Shown piece after piece: positions 1,101-7,695 of a DNA stretch of 22,372 bases (position 1 is its first letter; the number at the start of each line of letters is the position of its first letter). A program made the position numbers and the translations under genes. The notes below the pieces were generated by a model. It was not told the DNA's origin. It did no database searches and worked only from the letters and a program-made list of their open reading frames with translations. Source of the stretch: a virus; IMG/VR virus record IMGVR_UViG_3300020204_000412, positions 1 to 22,372 of that record, one strand, 5' to 3'.

Positions 1101-1109
1101 CTCTCGGCT

Positions 1110-1132
1110 GAGTGGCAATCTCGTTGTCACTC
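1110..1132 (+). other. Strong hairpin just after the HNH-like gene
   Basis: GAGTGGCAA (1110-1118) pairs with TTGTCACTC (1124-1132) through 9 pairs, one of them G-U, with a 5-base loop TCTCG. The same right arm could instead pair with GAGTGAC (1095-1101), which overlaps the stop codon of the HNH-like gene. No T-run follows, so a factor-independent terminator is unlikely. Confidence 0.45.
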
Positions 1133-1213
1133 GGTTGAATGAGTGGTCAAGGGGAAACTTGGAATCGGAGCGCCCTCTTTCGACTCTCCCCTCACAGGTT
1201 CGGTACGGGTCTC

Positions 1214-1290
1214 AATCGGGCCTTGGACCGTGTCAAGCCACGAATCGGGCCGGAGGACCGCAGCTAAAGCTACGAATCGGGCCGGGACCG
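1214..1290. repeat. Three direct copies of a GC-rich near-dyad
   Basis: Each copy starts AATCGGGCC and ends GGACCG: 1214-1230, 1243-1260 and 1275-1290, with starts 29 and 32 bases apart. The arms CGGGCC and GGACCG are inverted repeats with one mismatch, and the centre differs in each copy (TT, GGA, G). AATCGGAGC at 1173 may be a decayed fourth copy. Iterated dyads of this size are typical of operators or iterons; no binding protein can be named. Confidence 0.55.
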
Positions 1291-1321
1291 AAGTATGAGG
1301 TCTTTTATGATACGCTAAGAG

Positions 1322-1350
1322 CCTAAAATAAGGATACGGGTTATTTTAGG
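1322..1350. repeat. Perfect 10-bp inverted repeat with GATACG copies
   Basis: CCTAAAATAA (1322-1331) and TTATTTTAGG (1341-1350) are exact inverted repeats around a 9-base loop. GATACGCT occurs at 1309-1316 and again at 1350-1357, with GATACGGG at 1333-1340 in the loop. No T-run follows. It could be a protein-binding site or recombination-type site. Confidence 0.5.
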
Positions 1351-1473
1351 ATACGCTCATATACTAGGAACCCAACGTGTGAGGAATCGACAGACACGAA
1401 AAGACCCAGCATTGCTACTGGGCCTAGAGGGGGGGGGATATACATTGCGGCCAGCTATTGAGGAAACTAGCCA

Positions 1474-1515
1474 CTTGCCGAAGCAAGGAAGGCATTGCAC
1501 CTTCAGTCCGAAGGT
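1474..1515 (+). promoter_or_regulatory. Stem-loops with competing pairings
   Basis: CTTGC (1474-1478) and GCAAG (1483-1487) form a tetraloop hairpin. Next, GAAGG (1488-1492) can pair with CCTTC (1500-1504), or ACCTTC (1499-1504) can pair with GAAGGT (1510-1515); the two exclude each other. This is an attenuator-like layout, but the promoter found lies downstream, so it matters only in read-through RNA from upstream. Confidence 0.35.
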
Positions 1516-1554
1516 AACTCATCCAAAAAGTTTTGTCAACACCAGGCCAGGCAC

Positions 1555-1584
1555 TTGACAGGCAAAGTCTGTTTGTGCTAGAAC
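1555..1584 (+). promoter_or_regulatory. Sigma70 promoter for the 1637-8572 block
   Basis: Consensus TTGACA (1555-1560), an 18-base spacer and TAGAAC (1579-1584) preceded by TG at 1576-1577, an extended -10. It lies about 50 bases before the ribosome site (GAGG, 1626-1629) of the gene at 1637. TGTCAA at 1534-1539 forms an inverted repeat with the -35, so a repressor could bind there. Confidence 0.6.
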
Positions 1585-1636
1585 TGCTAGTGGGGGAAAT
1601 AGCGTTGCATCAATTTGTTTTTATTGAGGTTAATAG

Positions 1637-2797
1637 ATGCGATTTACTACAGCAAATAACCTAAACATCAAGCTAAGACTCATCCGTGCCCGTCGTTTTG
1701 CGGGCGTATCCGATGCTGCCCTTCGTAATGCGGAGCTCAGCGAGGCGGAAGTACGCGCAGCATTCGCGGCCGGTGAGAAGCTTCAACTTCCATTGCTTGT
1801 GACGGACCAGTTGATGGATGCCTCGGGAAGCCTTGCAAACGCCTCTCTGGTGATTGCGGACTTCGACCGGAAGGACATGCCGGAAGGCATGACGGAAAGT
1901 GAACTGCGAACCTGTCTGGCGGGACTTCAGGACGTAGTATTGCTTGAGTCAGTTTCGGGTATGCCCAAGGCTGCCTGGTTGACAGACCGGGCCGTGACAC
2001 GTGAGGAAGGTATCGAGGTACTTAAGGCACAGTTGCCTGAGAAGCTGCACTGGTTCGACAAGGCAGGTCTATTCAAATGCTTCATTCCAAGCAATACTTC
2101 GGCCGAAGCTCTGCAATATCAACTGGTTACTGTACGGGCCGTCAAGGTTATCTCAAAGCAAGCTGTACAGGTAGTAACTACTGCCCTCCCCGCTACGCAG
2201 GAGCTAGCTAAGCTAAGTAGGAGTATATGTAACATTCCCAGTATTCCAAGTACTTACCTCTTCTGTACAGCCTTTGCAGAGGACATCCCAACCCAACTTC
2301 AACACCTTGCCAAGACCGAGGCTCAGCGTTCCATGCTCCGCCTCGTCCTTTCTTGCTGGAACCTACTCAACCCACTAGGCTACGGCCTGTCCCAGCACCG
2401 CATCGCCAAACAACTCTCTATTGACGTGATGCAGGTCAACCGTTTCCTCAAACAACTTCAAAGGCTTGGACTCCTCTTCAAGACCTCTAAAACCTACTGC
2501 CAGGGCTCCAAGGCACAGTGCTACCGAGCACAGGGTATCCTCGCTAAGGCTATCCGTAAACTGAAAGCTAAACCACGGAAAAAGCTCGAACTTCCTACAG
2601 TCTGGCAAAAGGGCAACACCTACCGCCCCATGCTTAGCCTCCTTTGGGTCAACCAATCTTTAGACTTGCCAAGCTGGCTCCATCTGGTACAGTCGATTCC
2701 TGGAGCTACCCCAGCTCGACTCAACGACGCGACGAGGTACTGGCAGTGTCAACAGAAAAAACTCGCAAGCAAAGCAGTGCAGCAAAACCGAGCGTAG
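1637..2797 (+). CDS. Winged-helix protein with possible primase-like N-terminus
   Basis: A 386-residue protein I do not recognise as a whole. Residues about 233-300 look like a winged helix-turn-helix: a helical LSQHRIAKQLSIDVMQVN segment, then an LQRLGLL wing. That predicts DNA binding. In the N-terminal third, VIADFDRKD (72-80) has the hydrophobic-DxD pattern of the first motif of archaeo-eukaryotic primases, and SVSGMPKAAWL (105-115) resembles their SxSGxxK segment. The third motif is not evident, so this is a weak lead only. Start is ATG 1637 with GAGG seven bases before it. Its end overlaps the small-terminase gene by about 50 bases, so the two are probably translationally coupled. It could be a replication initiator or a regulator. 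Confidence 0.6.
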   Translation: MRFTTANNLNIKLRLIRARRFAGVSDAALRNAELSEAEVRAAFAAGEKLQLPLLVTDQLMDASGSLANASLVIADFDRKDMPEGMTESELRTCLAGLQDVVLLESVSGMPKAAWLTDRAVTREEGIEVLKAQLPEKLHWFDKAGLFKCFIPSNTSAEALQYQLVTVRAVKVISKQAVQVVTTALPATQELAKLSRSICNIPSIPSTYLFCTAFAEDIPTQLQHLAKTEAQRSMLRLVLSCWNLLNPLGYGLSQHRIAKQLSIDVMQVNRFLKQLQRLGLLFKTSKTYCQGSKAQCYRAQGILAKAIRKLKAKPRKKLELPTVWQKGNTYRPMLSLLWVNQSLDLPSWLHLVQSIPGATPARLNDATRYWQCQQKKLASKAVQQNRA

Positions 2798-3267
2798 ACG
2801 AGACAGCTAAGATTCTCGGCCAAGCGTTTCGTCCGTTGCCCATGCAACGTCAAGCCAAGACGCGCTACTGGGCCTTAGTCTCCGAGCAAGCACTGCTCGA
2901 AGACCTGGACATGCATGACCCATACGAATTGGCCAGGACATTGCAATGCCCAGCACTGCCAGCCTGGCTGCAGAACCCTCAATTCAAAATCTGGTTTGGT
3001 AATAAACACGAGCACCTCCAGCGCATCGAGTATCTGTTTGACCTAGCCCTGGACGCCGCAGAACAAATCTTGCAGAACGAGGACCCCAAAGCCCAGTCTG
3101 CCCGTGTAGCCATGATTAAGGTTCTCTCTGACCTGACGAACAAGCGACGCACAGAGAAGATTGCCGACACTCAAATCAACCAAATGACACCCGAGCAGCT
3201 TCGCTCCTACATCGAGAAGCAGGCTCCAATCCTTCTTAGCCCCACCAAGTCGGAGGAAGACAAGTGA
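2746..3267 (+). CDS. terS: Probable terminase small subunit
   Basis: I choose the GTG start at 2746 (GAGG eight bases upstream, 173 residues). An ATG at 2644 in the same frame would lengthen the overlap with the previous gene to over 150 bases and add a low-quality N-terminus. The protein is helical and charged: a short recognition region (about residues 15-60), then WLQNPQFKIWFGN and a long helical segment with RIEYLFDLALDAAEQIL and DPKAQSARVAMIKVL. That helix, with an ELL/DPKAQSAR-type sequence, is typical of phage small terminases or of proteins annotated as such. In the usual role it binds the packaging site and loads the large subunit. TerL lies about 7.4 kb downstream, an unusual separation. 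Assignment is by resemblance. Confidence 0.55.
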   Translation: MSTEKTRKQSSAAKPSVDETAKILGQAFRPLPMQRQAKTRYWALVSEQALLEDLDMHDPYELARTLQCPALPAWLQNPQFKIWFGNKHEHLQRIEYLFDLALDAAEQILQNEDPKAQSARVAMIKVLSDLTNKRRTEKIADTQINQMTPEQLRSYIEKQAPILLSPTKSEEDK

Positions 3268-5262: not shown

Positions 5263-7695
5263 ATGTCATTACAAATTAAAGGTAAATTTATCTCGAATGA
5301 AGCCGTTGACGGCTCCAAGATTAAGCTCCGTCAAGGCGAAGCTCTTCGCGCCATTGACGAAAATGGCATAGAAATTGAGTTGCTCAAGATTGGCCCCAAC
5401 GGCGAAGTACTTGCCAATGGCGACGAATTGGCACTTGCTGCAGACTTGGACGCAGAAGTAGTACGCGCCCAGGCCGCAGAAGCTGTTCTCCAAGCCGAGA
5501 TTGACGCAGAAGAAGCGGCCCGTGCTGCCGCTGTTTCAGCCGAAGCGAGTGCACGTCAATCTGCAGATACCACCCTCCAGGCCAACATTGACGCCGAGGC
5601 AGCCGCCCGCGCAGCTGCAGTCGCAGCCGAAGCAGCAGCACGCACAGCCGCAGTTGCCGCTGAGCAAGCAGCCCGCGAAGCCGCAGACCTCGCACTCCAG
5701 GCTAACATTGATGCCGAAGCTGCAGCCCGCGCCGCAGCTGTTTCTAGCGAAGCAGCATCCAGAGCAGCGGCCGACTCGGCTCTCTCCGCTCGTTTGGACA
5801 TCGTTGAAGGTTCAGGCGAAGGCTCGGTAGCCAAAGCCGAATCCGACGCTAAGGCCTACGCCGACCAGAAAATCGCTGACTTGGTCAACTCTGCCCCTGC
5901 AGTCCTCGACACCCTTAAAGAGTTGTCCGACGCGATTGGCGGAGACCAGAACTTCGCAGCTACCATCGCAGGCCAAATCGGCGACGTTCAAGACAATGTA
6001 GACGCCGAAGAAGCCCGCGCTCTTGCAGCTGAGCAGGCCCTCCAGTCGGACATTGATGCCGAAGAAGCAGCTCGCATTGCAGCCGTCTCTGCAGAAGAAG
6101 CTAGAGCACTTGCAGCCGAGGCAGCCCTCTCTGCATCCATCGCATCTGAAGCTTCCTCACGCGCTTCTGCCATCTCTGCTGAAGCCAGCGCACGCCAAGC
6201 AGCTGACACCTCCTTGCAAGCAAACATTGACGCTGAGTCCGCAGCTCGCGTAGCCGCAGTCTCCGCTGAAGCTACTGCTCGCCAGGCAGCCGACGCCGCA
6301 CTGCAAGCCTCCATCACCGCCTTGGAAGAGTCCATTGGACAATCCCTGGCTGACCAAGTCAATGCTCTCGAAGTTGCATTGGCAGCAGAAGAGGCAGCTC
6401 GCGCTGCAGCAGATTCTACGCTGACCTCTAACCTTGCAGCTGAAGTTTCCCGTGCTCAGGCCGCTGAAGCAGCTCTTCAGTCAGAGCTCGACGCCGAAGA
6501 AGCTCGTGCAGCAGCCGCAGAAGCAGCCCTCGCTCAAGACATTGCCGACGAAGAGTCTGCACGCATCGCTGCAGTCGCAGGCGAAGCTGCCGCTCGTGCC
6601 GCTGCAGACTCCGCACTGCAAGGTTCTATCGACGCAGAAGTTGCCGCACGCGCTGCTGCAGTATCCAGCGAAGCTTCGGCACGCGCCGCAGCTGACTCAA
6701 CTCTCCAGAGCAATATCGACGCCGAAGCTGCATCCAGAATCGCAGGCGACGCAGCAACCCTTGCTTCCGCAAACAGCTATACCGATAGCCAAGTTGCAGC
6801 CTTGGTTGACGCTGCTCCTGCCCTGCTCAACACCCTGAAAGAACTCAGCGACGCACTGGGCGGAGATGAGAACTTTGCTACGACAATTGCAGGCAACATC
6901 GCAGCAGTACAGGCAGAAGTTGACGCAGAAGAAGTTCGCGCAGCCGCAGCCGAAGCTACACTCCAGTCCAACATTGATGCAGAAGCTGCAGCAAGAGTAG
7001 CCGCAGTCTCGGCTGAGCAGGCTCGTGCAGAAGCTGCAGAAGCCCTGAAGTTGAACAAAGCTGGCGGAGAAATGTCCGGCGAGTTGGTAATGAACAACGC
7101 CGACCTCAAGGTGAAAAATCCTTCCGGCCAGGTCGTTGCTCATTTCGACGCTTCCGAGTCCAGCGCAGTCTTTGGTGTTGTCTCAGCTAACACTCTCTCG
7201 ACAGAGATGGCAGGCGGAGCAATCAAGGTCGAAGCAGGCGTAAACCTCGGCGGAGCTCAGACCTTCATCGGTGCAGGCTTCATTAACTTGCAGGAAAGCA
7301 ACGGCTCTGCCGCAATGCCTACCCTGGCTAAGCATGCAGCTCCCAAGGCATACGTTGACCAGGAAGTCGCAGCTGAAGCCGCAGCCCGTGCATCTGCAGA
7401 CTCAGGCCATAACAGCCGAATCTCTGCCCTCGAAGCACGCGAATTCCGCCACGTCAAACGTACCCTCACAAGCACAGACATCAGCAACGGTTACATCGCA
7501 CTCGACCACGTAGTTGTATCCAAGTCAATCGTAGCTTCGGTTGGCCGTCTGATGATTCACGAGGGAGCAACGGAAGACTTCACTGTCTCGACAGTTGGAG
7601 GCGTCAGCCGCATGACCTTCCTCAACTCGCTGGTTCACCCAGGAAATGAGGCACTCAGCGCAGGCGATGTGGTTTACGTGCAATACCTCGCTTAA
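5263..7695 (+). CDS. Ala-rich coiled-coil tail fibre
   Basis: An 810-residue protein with AGGAG upstream of ATG 5263. After a 60-residue N-terminal domain (probably the particle attachment end) comes a shaft, about residues 65-590, made of Ala-rich repeats such as LQANIDAEAAARAAAVSAE. Units of 29 residues, sometimes 40, recur; the 11-residue sub-step suggests hendecad coiled coil, as in trimeric fibre shafts. The shaft is broken twice, about residues 197-240 and 505-550, by a common fibre motif (SAPAVLDTLKEL, GGDQNF), so the halves are about 308 residues apart. Residues 595-700 are a globular region opening with LNKAGGEMSGEL, and residues about 715-810 are the tip domain shared with the 4830 product. 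It probably binds the host surface or spaces a receptor-binding tip. It contains no peptidase or chaperone motif. Confidence 0.85.
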   Translation: MSLQIKGKFISNEAVDGSKIKLRQGEALRAIDENGIEIELLKIGPNGEVLANGDELALAADLDAEVVRAQAAEAVLQAEIDAEEAARAAAVSAEASARQSADTTLQANIDAEAAARAAAVAAEAAARTAAVAAEQAAREAADLALQANIDAEAAARAAAVSSEAASRAAADSALSARLDIVEGSGEGSVAKAESDAKAYADQKIADLVNSAPAVLDTLKELSDAIGGDQNFAATIAGQIGDVQDNVDAEEARALAAEQALQSDIDAEEAARIAAVSAEEARALAAEAALSASIASEASSRASAISAEASARQAADTSLQANIDAESAARVAAVSAEATARQAADAALQASITALEESIGQSLADQVNALEVALAAEEAARAAADSTLTSNLAAEVSRAQAAEAALQSELDAEEARAAAAEAALAQDIADEESARIAAVAGEAAARAAADSALQGSIDAEVAARAAAVSSEASARAAADSTLQSNIDAEAASRIAGDAATLASANSYTDSQVAALVDAAPALLNTLKELSDALGGDENFATTIAGNIAAVQAEVDAEEVRAAAAEATLQSNIDAEAAARVAAVSAEQARAEAAEALKLNKAGGEMSGELVMNNADLKVKNPSGQVVAHFDASESSAVFGVVSANTLSTEMAGGAIKVEAGVNLGGAQTFIGAGFINLQESNGSAAMPTLAKHAAPKAYVDQEVAAEAAARASADSGHNSRISALEAREFRHVKRTLTSTDISNGYIALDHVVVSKSIVASVGRLMIHEGATEDFTVSTVGGVSRMTFLNSLVHPGNEALSAGDVVYVQYLA
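5455..7050 (+). repeat. Coding repeats of the fibre shaft
   Basis: DNA encoding the Ala-rich shaft: degenerate 87-nt (29-residue) units with many GCA/GCC/GCT runs and recurring CTCCAG...AACATTGACGC phrases. Copies differ mainly at silent positions, so they are maintained as protein, and may recombine. Confidence 0.7.

Follow-up and report, generated by a model that had tools for sequence, protein, structure and literature searches.

The window, by which we mean the whole stretch of DNA analysed here, covers 22,372 nucleotides (positions 1 to 22,372 of virus record IMGVR_UViG_3300020204_000412) and is a tailed-phage fragment with genes for TerL, a portal protein, which is P22-like, and a class II-type ribonucleotide reductase. 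Positions 1101-1636 are non-coding and are bordered on one side by an HNH-like ORF (639-1100) and on the other by the ORF at 1637-2797, here called gene 1637. The gene that comes after it, at about 2746-3267, is probably small-terminase-like (TerS-like), judging from position and appearance, and a family search with it gave no match. The HNH-like protein retains its zinc-binding cysteines and, as judged by eye, has seemingly lost the catalytic D/H-N-H residues in all six phages considered below; a fold search with it returned nothing significant, and it is perhaps a former endonuclease turned DNA-binding regulator. Upstream of its gene lies a nearly invariant promoter-like block at 561-605, CCCCCTTTACACTCGGGCACTTTTCTGGTAGGCTACCCCCT, which is seen in 6/6 phages and reads TTTACA-N17-TAGGCT in the window. 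Further observations in the same DNA are an alternating GT/GC tract at 380-415, gtgcgtgtgcgcgtgtgtgcacgcgtgcgcgtg, which is present in an altered version in the relative L001 and is possibly Z-DNA-forming or slippage-prone, and an 810-aa protein (5263-7695) with many Ala/Glu-rich repeats (AEAAARAAAV...) matching each other within and between relatives, which is probably a fibre or coiled-coil tail protein.

Five relatives with the upstream region were found by protein-guided scans. Two of them, L001 and L002, carry gene 1637 (84% and 66% in that gene, respectively). The other three, L018, L019 and L020, were reached through the TerS-like protein and have the HNH-like and TerS-like genes with gene 1637 absent between them; the absence is clean (L018 5652-6000, L019 5672-6000, L020 2146-2400) and coincides with a short form of the small RNA described below. 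One more contig, L013, has the gene order HNH-like, gene 1637-like, TerS-like as in the window, with only about 63 nt separating the first two. No other phages with this layout were found in further scans of the phage collection (by DNA and protein) and of bacterial genomes.

The original prediction had described 1101-1636 as a crowd of hairpins and dyads with more structure than a simple promoter needs, and had suggested a structured RNA, or a control or replication site. The repeats and hairpins it listed could be located, with the pair of exclusive stems as the exception, and they belong to several separate elements rather than to one structure. The features that we distinguish are as follows.

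1151-1222, no strand assigned: block A, a stretch of conserved non-coding DNA that follows the HNH-like gene, from a six-phage alignment and a sequence pattern.
1214-1291, plus strand: three AATCGGGCC repeats with GGACCG-like halves, at spacings of 29 and 32.
1301-1394, no strand assigned: a cassette with an AT-rich palindrome (1322-1350), 87% identical to L018 and replaced in L001.
1398-1508, minus strand: the putative small RNA gene, with its start placed at about 1504-1508 and its end at the U-tract; it is recognised by its minus-strand fold, likewise in L001 and L002.
1398-1425, minus strand: intrinsic terminator, stem 1425-1402 followed by TTTT, from a terminator scan and covariation.
1429-1445, minus strand: single-stranded linker that includes a C-run and is complementary to the gene 1637 message at its 5' end.
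1446-1473, minus strand: hairpin 3 of the small RNA; the loop at 1456-1463 contains CCUCAAU, a complement of the gene 1637 ribosome-binding region.
1474-1504, minus strand: hairpins 1 and 2 of the small RNA; the loop of hairpin 2 is UUCG, and UCCG in L001.
1511-1539, minus strand: small RNA promoter, TTGACA-N17-TACCTT, with the same spacing in six phages.
1555-1583, plus strand: gene 1637 promoter, TTGACA-N17-CTAGAA, with aligned promoters in six phages.
1590-1636, plus strand: leader of the gene 1637 message, from a putative start, with the Shine-Dalgarno sequence (SD) GAGG within 1623-1629; target of the co-evolving pairing.
1637-2797, plus strand: gene 1637, the predicted target, encoding a 386-aa protein with a weak winged-helix match and primase-like motifs seen by eye only.

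In these terms, the predicted 9-pair hairpin is part of a longer stem at about 1104-1138, which immediately follows the stop codon of the HNH-like ORF, has no U-tract and is apparently replaced by a different stem in L001. The GC-rich near-dyads turned out to be three exact copies of AATCGGGCC at 1214, 1243 and 1275, and a GGACCG-like half follows each of them. The exact 10-bp inverted repeat lies at 1322-1331/1341-1350 with GATACGCT copies at 1309 and 1350, and the tetraloop hairpin is found at 1474-1487, where the loop is UUCG on the minus strand.

The folding analysis separates one of these elements from the rest. The minus strand of 1398-1504 folds well beyond dinucleotide shuffles (z -4.29, with 0/200 shuffles as stable), and the plus strand of the same segment does no better than shuffles (z +1.57). 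The corresponding RNA of L001 and L002 gave z values of -4.53 and -5.37, so that a stable fold on the transcribed strand, as looked for in a base-pairing regulatory small RNA, is present in three phages. A structured RNA on the plus strand of 1101-1397 was considered and rejected (z -1.11 for 1101-1300 and -0.68 for 1301-1397). The suspicion of excess structure is therefore borne out by the minus strand of 1398-1504 as RNA, and fails for the plus strand there and for 1101-1300 and 1301-1397; likewise, the structured RNA is confined to the minus strand of about 1398-1508, and the remaining hairpins and dyads are no stabler than shuffled sequence and look like DNA elements. That 1101-1397 is no stabler than shuffles would suit the view that all of 1101-1636 owes its structure to chance in GC-rich promoter DNA and encodes no RNA at all, but the strand-specific fold, the covariation and the co-evolving complementarity at 1398-1636 oppose it, and we consider it highly improbable. 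Searches for known RNAs gave no match to covariance models of Rfam families at the gathering score or at E<=1, and no tRNA or tmRNA was found.

The putative RNA is about 110 nt long in the window, L001 and L002, where it consists of hairpins, a C7-C9 run and a terminator. In the phages without gene 1637 (L018-L020) it is 53-73 nt long, and these short RNAs keep the promoter, the terminator and a CCCUCCU stretch.

The terminator is present in all six phages with this layout. Nine pairs of its stem are standard in all five distinct sequences (100% paired), four of them changed on both sides, compared with 50% or less for slid controls, the arms having been aligned by hand for this count. The G-U pairs of the stem, which would become A-C mismatches on the plus strand, fit the minus strand only. 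The minus-strand promoter has TTGACA or TTGACG followed after exactly 17 nt by a hexamer starting with T in 6/6 phages; the -10 hexamer is the weak TACCTT in the window, TAATAC in L001 and TATAAA in L002. In each of the six phages it occupies an equivalent position, back to back with the rightward promoter of the following gene. A consensus promoter scan of the window reported neither promoter (the -10 hexamers, TACCTT and CTAGAA, are both poor). The small RNA gene can be assigned its own intrinsic terminator together with its own promoter, the latter by conservation rather than by the window scan. The two -35 boxes form a dyad at 1534-1560 (TGTCAA...TTGACA), which is longer in L018 and L019 (TGTCAAGTCC...GGGCTTG.CA) and is possibly a shared operator.

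The candidate target, gene 1637, is not easily named. The likeness to primase motifs was seen by eye only, with no Pfam, PDB or fold support (model pLDDT 48), so a primase identity was not accepted, and the 386-aa protein gave no match to a toxin family.

Two helices can be read from the sequences and duplex models of the RNA with its leader, and they occur in identical order in the three phages with gene 1637 (3/3). At the 5' end of the message, the pairing with the linker reads UCCCCC:GGGGGA, then UAU:AUA, then GCAAUG:CGUUGC in the window, CCCC:GGGG, UUAU:AUAA, UCC:GGA and UA:UA in L001, and CCCC:GGGG, UA:UA and UACUUUU:AAAAGUA in L002. At the ribosome-binding region the partner is the loop region of hairpin 3, with CCUCAAUA:UAUUGAGG in the window, AUAAGCCUCA:UGAGGUUUAU with one G-U in L001, and CCUUUAUUUAC:GUAAAUAAAAGG with one bulge in L002. 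The letters of the helices differ between the phages, and their positions (near the 5' end and at the SD) are constant. Complementarity to the translation start region of the target is therefore found in all three phages with gene 1637 (3/3), and a fit to an own leader was not detected in L018-L020 (0/3).

The pairing is also specific to each phage. By a strict complementarity score, the own RNA-leader pairs reach 48.1, 51.3 and 52.2 compared with 28.3-39.2 for the six mismatched combinations, and RNAduplex gives the same diagonal (-40.4, -35.5 and -36.2 for own pairs versus -22.6 to -28.7 for mismatched ones). Against dinucleotide shuffles the own-pair scores have p values of 0.0007, 0.001 and 0.0017 (Fisher combined 2.6e-7, and 1.9e-6 without the C-run and G-run), which are indicative rather than exact, since the phages are related and only three in number and independence is overstated. 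When the full RNA segment was scored against the 20 gene starts of the window, the gene 1637 leader ranked first, and second without the C-run; a few sites in the window equal it. RNAduplex over whole-genome windows did not single out the leader; this energy is not discriminating because loops add up, and the stricter local score was therefore used instead. Tested by itself against the SD region, the loop reaches significance in the window only (p 0.003, with the window loop set one base off the model's loop; 0.32 in L001 and 0.095 in L002). With respect to the original prediction, which had proposed conservation and covariation in relatives as its check, both appear at the small RNA: five distinct sequences show covariation in the terminator stem, and in three phages the paired segments of RNA and leader have changed in concert.

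On the plus strand of the DNA, the RNA gene and the leader form direct repeats in colinear order, and gene conversion could help to keep them alike. Such similarity as exists upstream of the message start is weak and shows no preference for own pairs, and a simple duplicated promoter-leader unit as the source of the complementarity is not supported there. The direct repeats nevertheless leave room for another reading, in which a real minus-strand small RNA has its main job elsewhere (on host messages, RNA polymerase or another phage gene) and the leader complementarity is incidental or a product of gene conversion. The short forms in phages without gene 1637, with promoter, terminator and CCCUCCU stretch retained, speak in its favour; the fit, however, is own-pair specific in 3/3 phages, ends at the message start and coincides with the message 5' end and the SD, the expected sites of repression. 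We hold this reading to be unlikely. The short RNA of L018-L020 may have another job, may act through CCCUCCU, or may be a simpler ancestral or reduced form.

Our preferred reading is that 1398-1508 probably is the gene of a minus-strand small RNA of about 110 nt, likely repressing translation of gene 1637 by pairing; the proposal of a structured RNA or a control site was right in outline. The RNA would be transcribed leftward from the promoter that is back to back with the gene 1637 promoter, and ended by the intrinsic terminator. Once folded, it would have three hairpins, then a C-rich linker left single-stranded, then the terminator hairpin. The hairpin 3 loop is predicted to make the first contact with the gene 1637 message, at its Shine-Dalgarno region, after which the linker would zip onto the 5' end of the message, and loading of ribosomes on gene 1637 would be blocked, perhaps with RNase III cutting of the duplex. 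The RNA would act in trans though it is encoded next door, because RNA and message come from non-overlapping divergent units. No plus-strand terminator was picked up by a scan of the window in the interval from the HNH-like gene to gene 1637. Transcripts reading through rightward from the HNH-like gene would be fully antisense to the small RNA and could therefore titrate it.

Between the HNH-like gene and the small RNA gene, block A is conserved as DNA in the six phages, although the HNH-like proteins are just 41-45% identical between two groups, and it is unlikely to be coding because of a one-base length difference in L002. The block A pattern had three matches in bacterial genomes (L055-L057), which are probably due to chance. 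The TCGGGC count exceeds that of shuffled sequence (p about 3e-4) and varies between phages: the window and L001 each have three copies, L019 and L020 have two, and L002 and L018 have a single one. The cassette at 1301-1394 matches the distant L018 (5725-5818) at 87% and is missing from closer relatives, L001 having another palindrome at that place, which therefore is a sign of mosaic exchange in the control region; a pattern search with the cassette matched the contig of L018 only.

Beside the small RNA, and not instead of it, 1151-1291 might be a packaging (cos or pac) site in which block A is cut and the TCGGGCC repeats are bound by the small terminase. The order HNH-like gene, conserved DNA, TerS-like gene (the last label resting on position and appearance) in six phages and the repeats next to block A would fit such a site, but no contig terminates at block A, the repeat count varies from 1 to 3, and the HNH-like protein has no recognisable catalytic residues when inspected by eye. 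The P22-like portal also opposes a cos reading, a portal of this type going with headful packaging in P22. A parallel exists in phage HK97, whose TerS binds at a distance of 15-29 bp downstream from the cos cut and whose HNH protein, gp74, stimulates cleavage at cos (PMC11331095). The likeness is limited to block A, where an HNH-type gene, a conserved DNA site and terminase genes adjoin as at the HK97 cos, and the repeats and the degenerate HNH motif set the window phage apart; taken together, we find a packaging site rather doubtful. A tentative possibility is that a repressor, or else the HNH-like or gene 1637 protein, uses the repeats and the palindromic cassette as operators and thereby controls the divergent promoters. 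The repeats are indeed close to the point from which leftward and rightward genes diverge, and the cassette has been exchanged between phages as in immunity-type control regions, but the spacing of the half-sites varies and the repeats are 200-300 bp away from the promoters. For block A and the repeats, an operator region appears as likely as a cos-like site.

Regulatory RNAs with an identifiable target are available for few phages and for hardly any uncultured ones, and at the present locus the RNA, its promoter, its terminator and its target can all be read from the sequence. The pairing, present in the relatives with the target gene (3/3) and undetected in those without it (0/3), is rewritten from phage to phage with its position kept, and so provides a natural series of co-evolved pairs. 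One could speculate that each phage has a private RNA-leader pair, functional with itself and poorly with the partners of its relatives, and that this amounts to RNA-based incompatibility or superinfection immunity. An RNA from the phage that is resident or infects first would then silence closely matched phages alone, and an immunity system would sit beside the terminase block of otherwise lytic-looking phages; we give this idea very little probability.

Comparison with known systems suggests that the small RNA is a new example of a known mode of gene control, here in an uncultured phage lineage. By layout, the nearest is IstR-1/tisB of E. coli, in which IstR-1 is encoded divergently from tisB and pairs with the tisB 5' UTR, the complementarity being 21 nt long and lying far upstream from the ribosome-binding site in a toxic-peptide message (PMC4147584). 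A divergent RNA pairing with the 5' UTR of its neighbour is what layout and complementarity indicate here as well: a divergent small RNA, partial complementarity to the target 5' UTR and an expected block of translation. Unlike IstR-1, the phage RNA would pair at the message 5' end and the SD, and its target is a 386-aa phage protein rather than a small hydrophobic toxic peptide, which argues against membership in the type I toxin-antitoxin systems. Among phage RNAs, OOP and sar overlap their targets, cII and ant. An overlapping cis-antisense RNA such as OOP was rejected for the window, since the small RNA and gene 1637 units are divergent and non-overlapping and their complementarity is partial and imperfect. 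The likeness lies in a phage-encoded small RNA having a neighbouring phage gene as its predicted base-pairing target, as with lambda OOP RNA and P22 sar RNA, antisense RNAs that act through base pairing to down-regulate an adjacent phage gene (PMC12197685).
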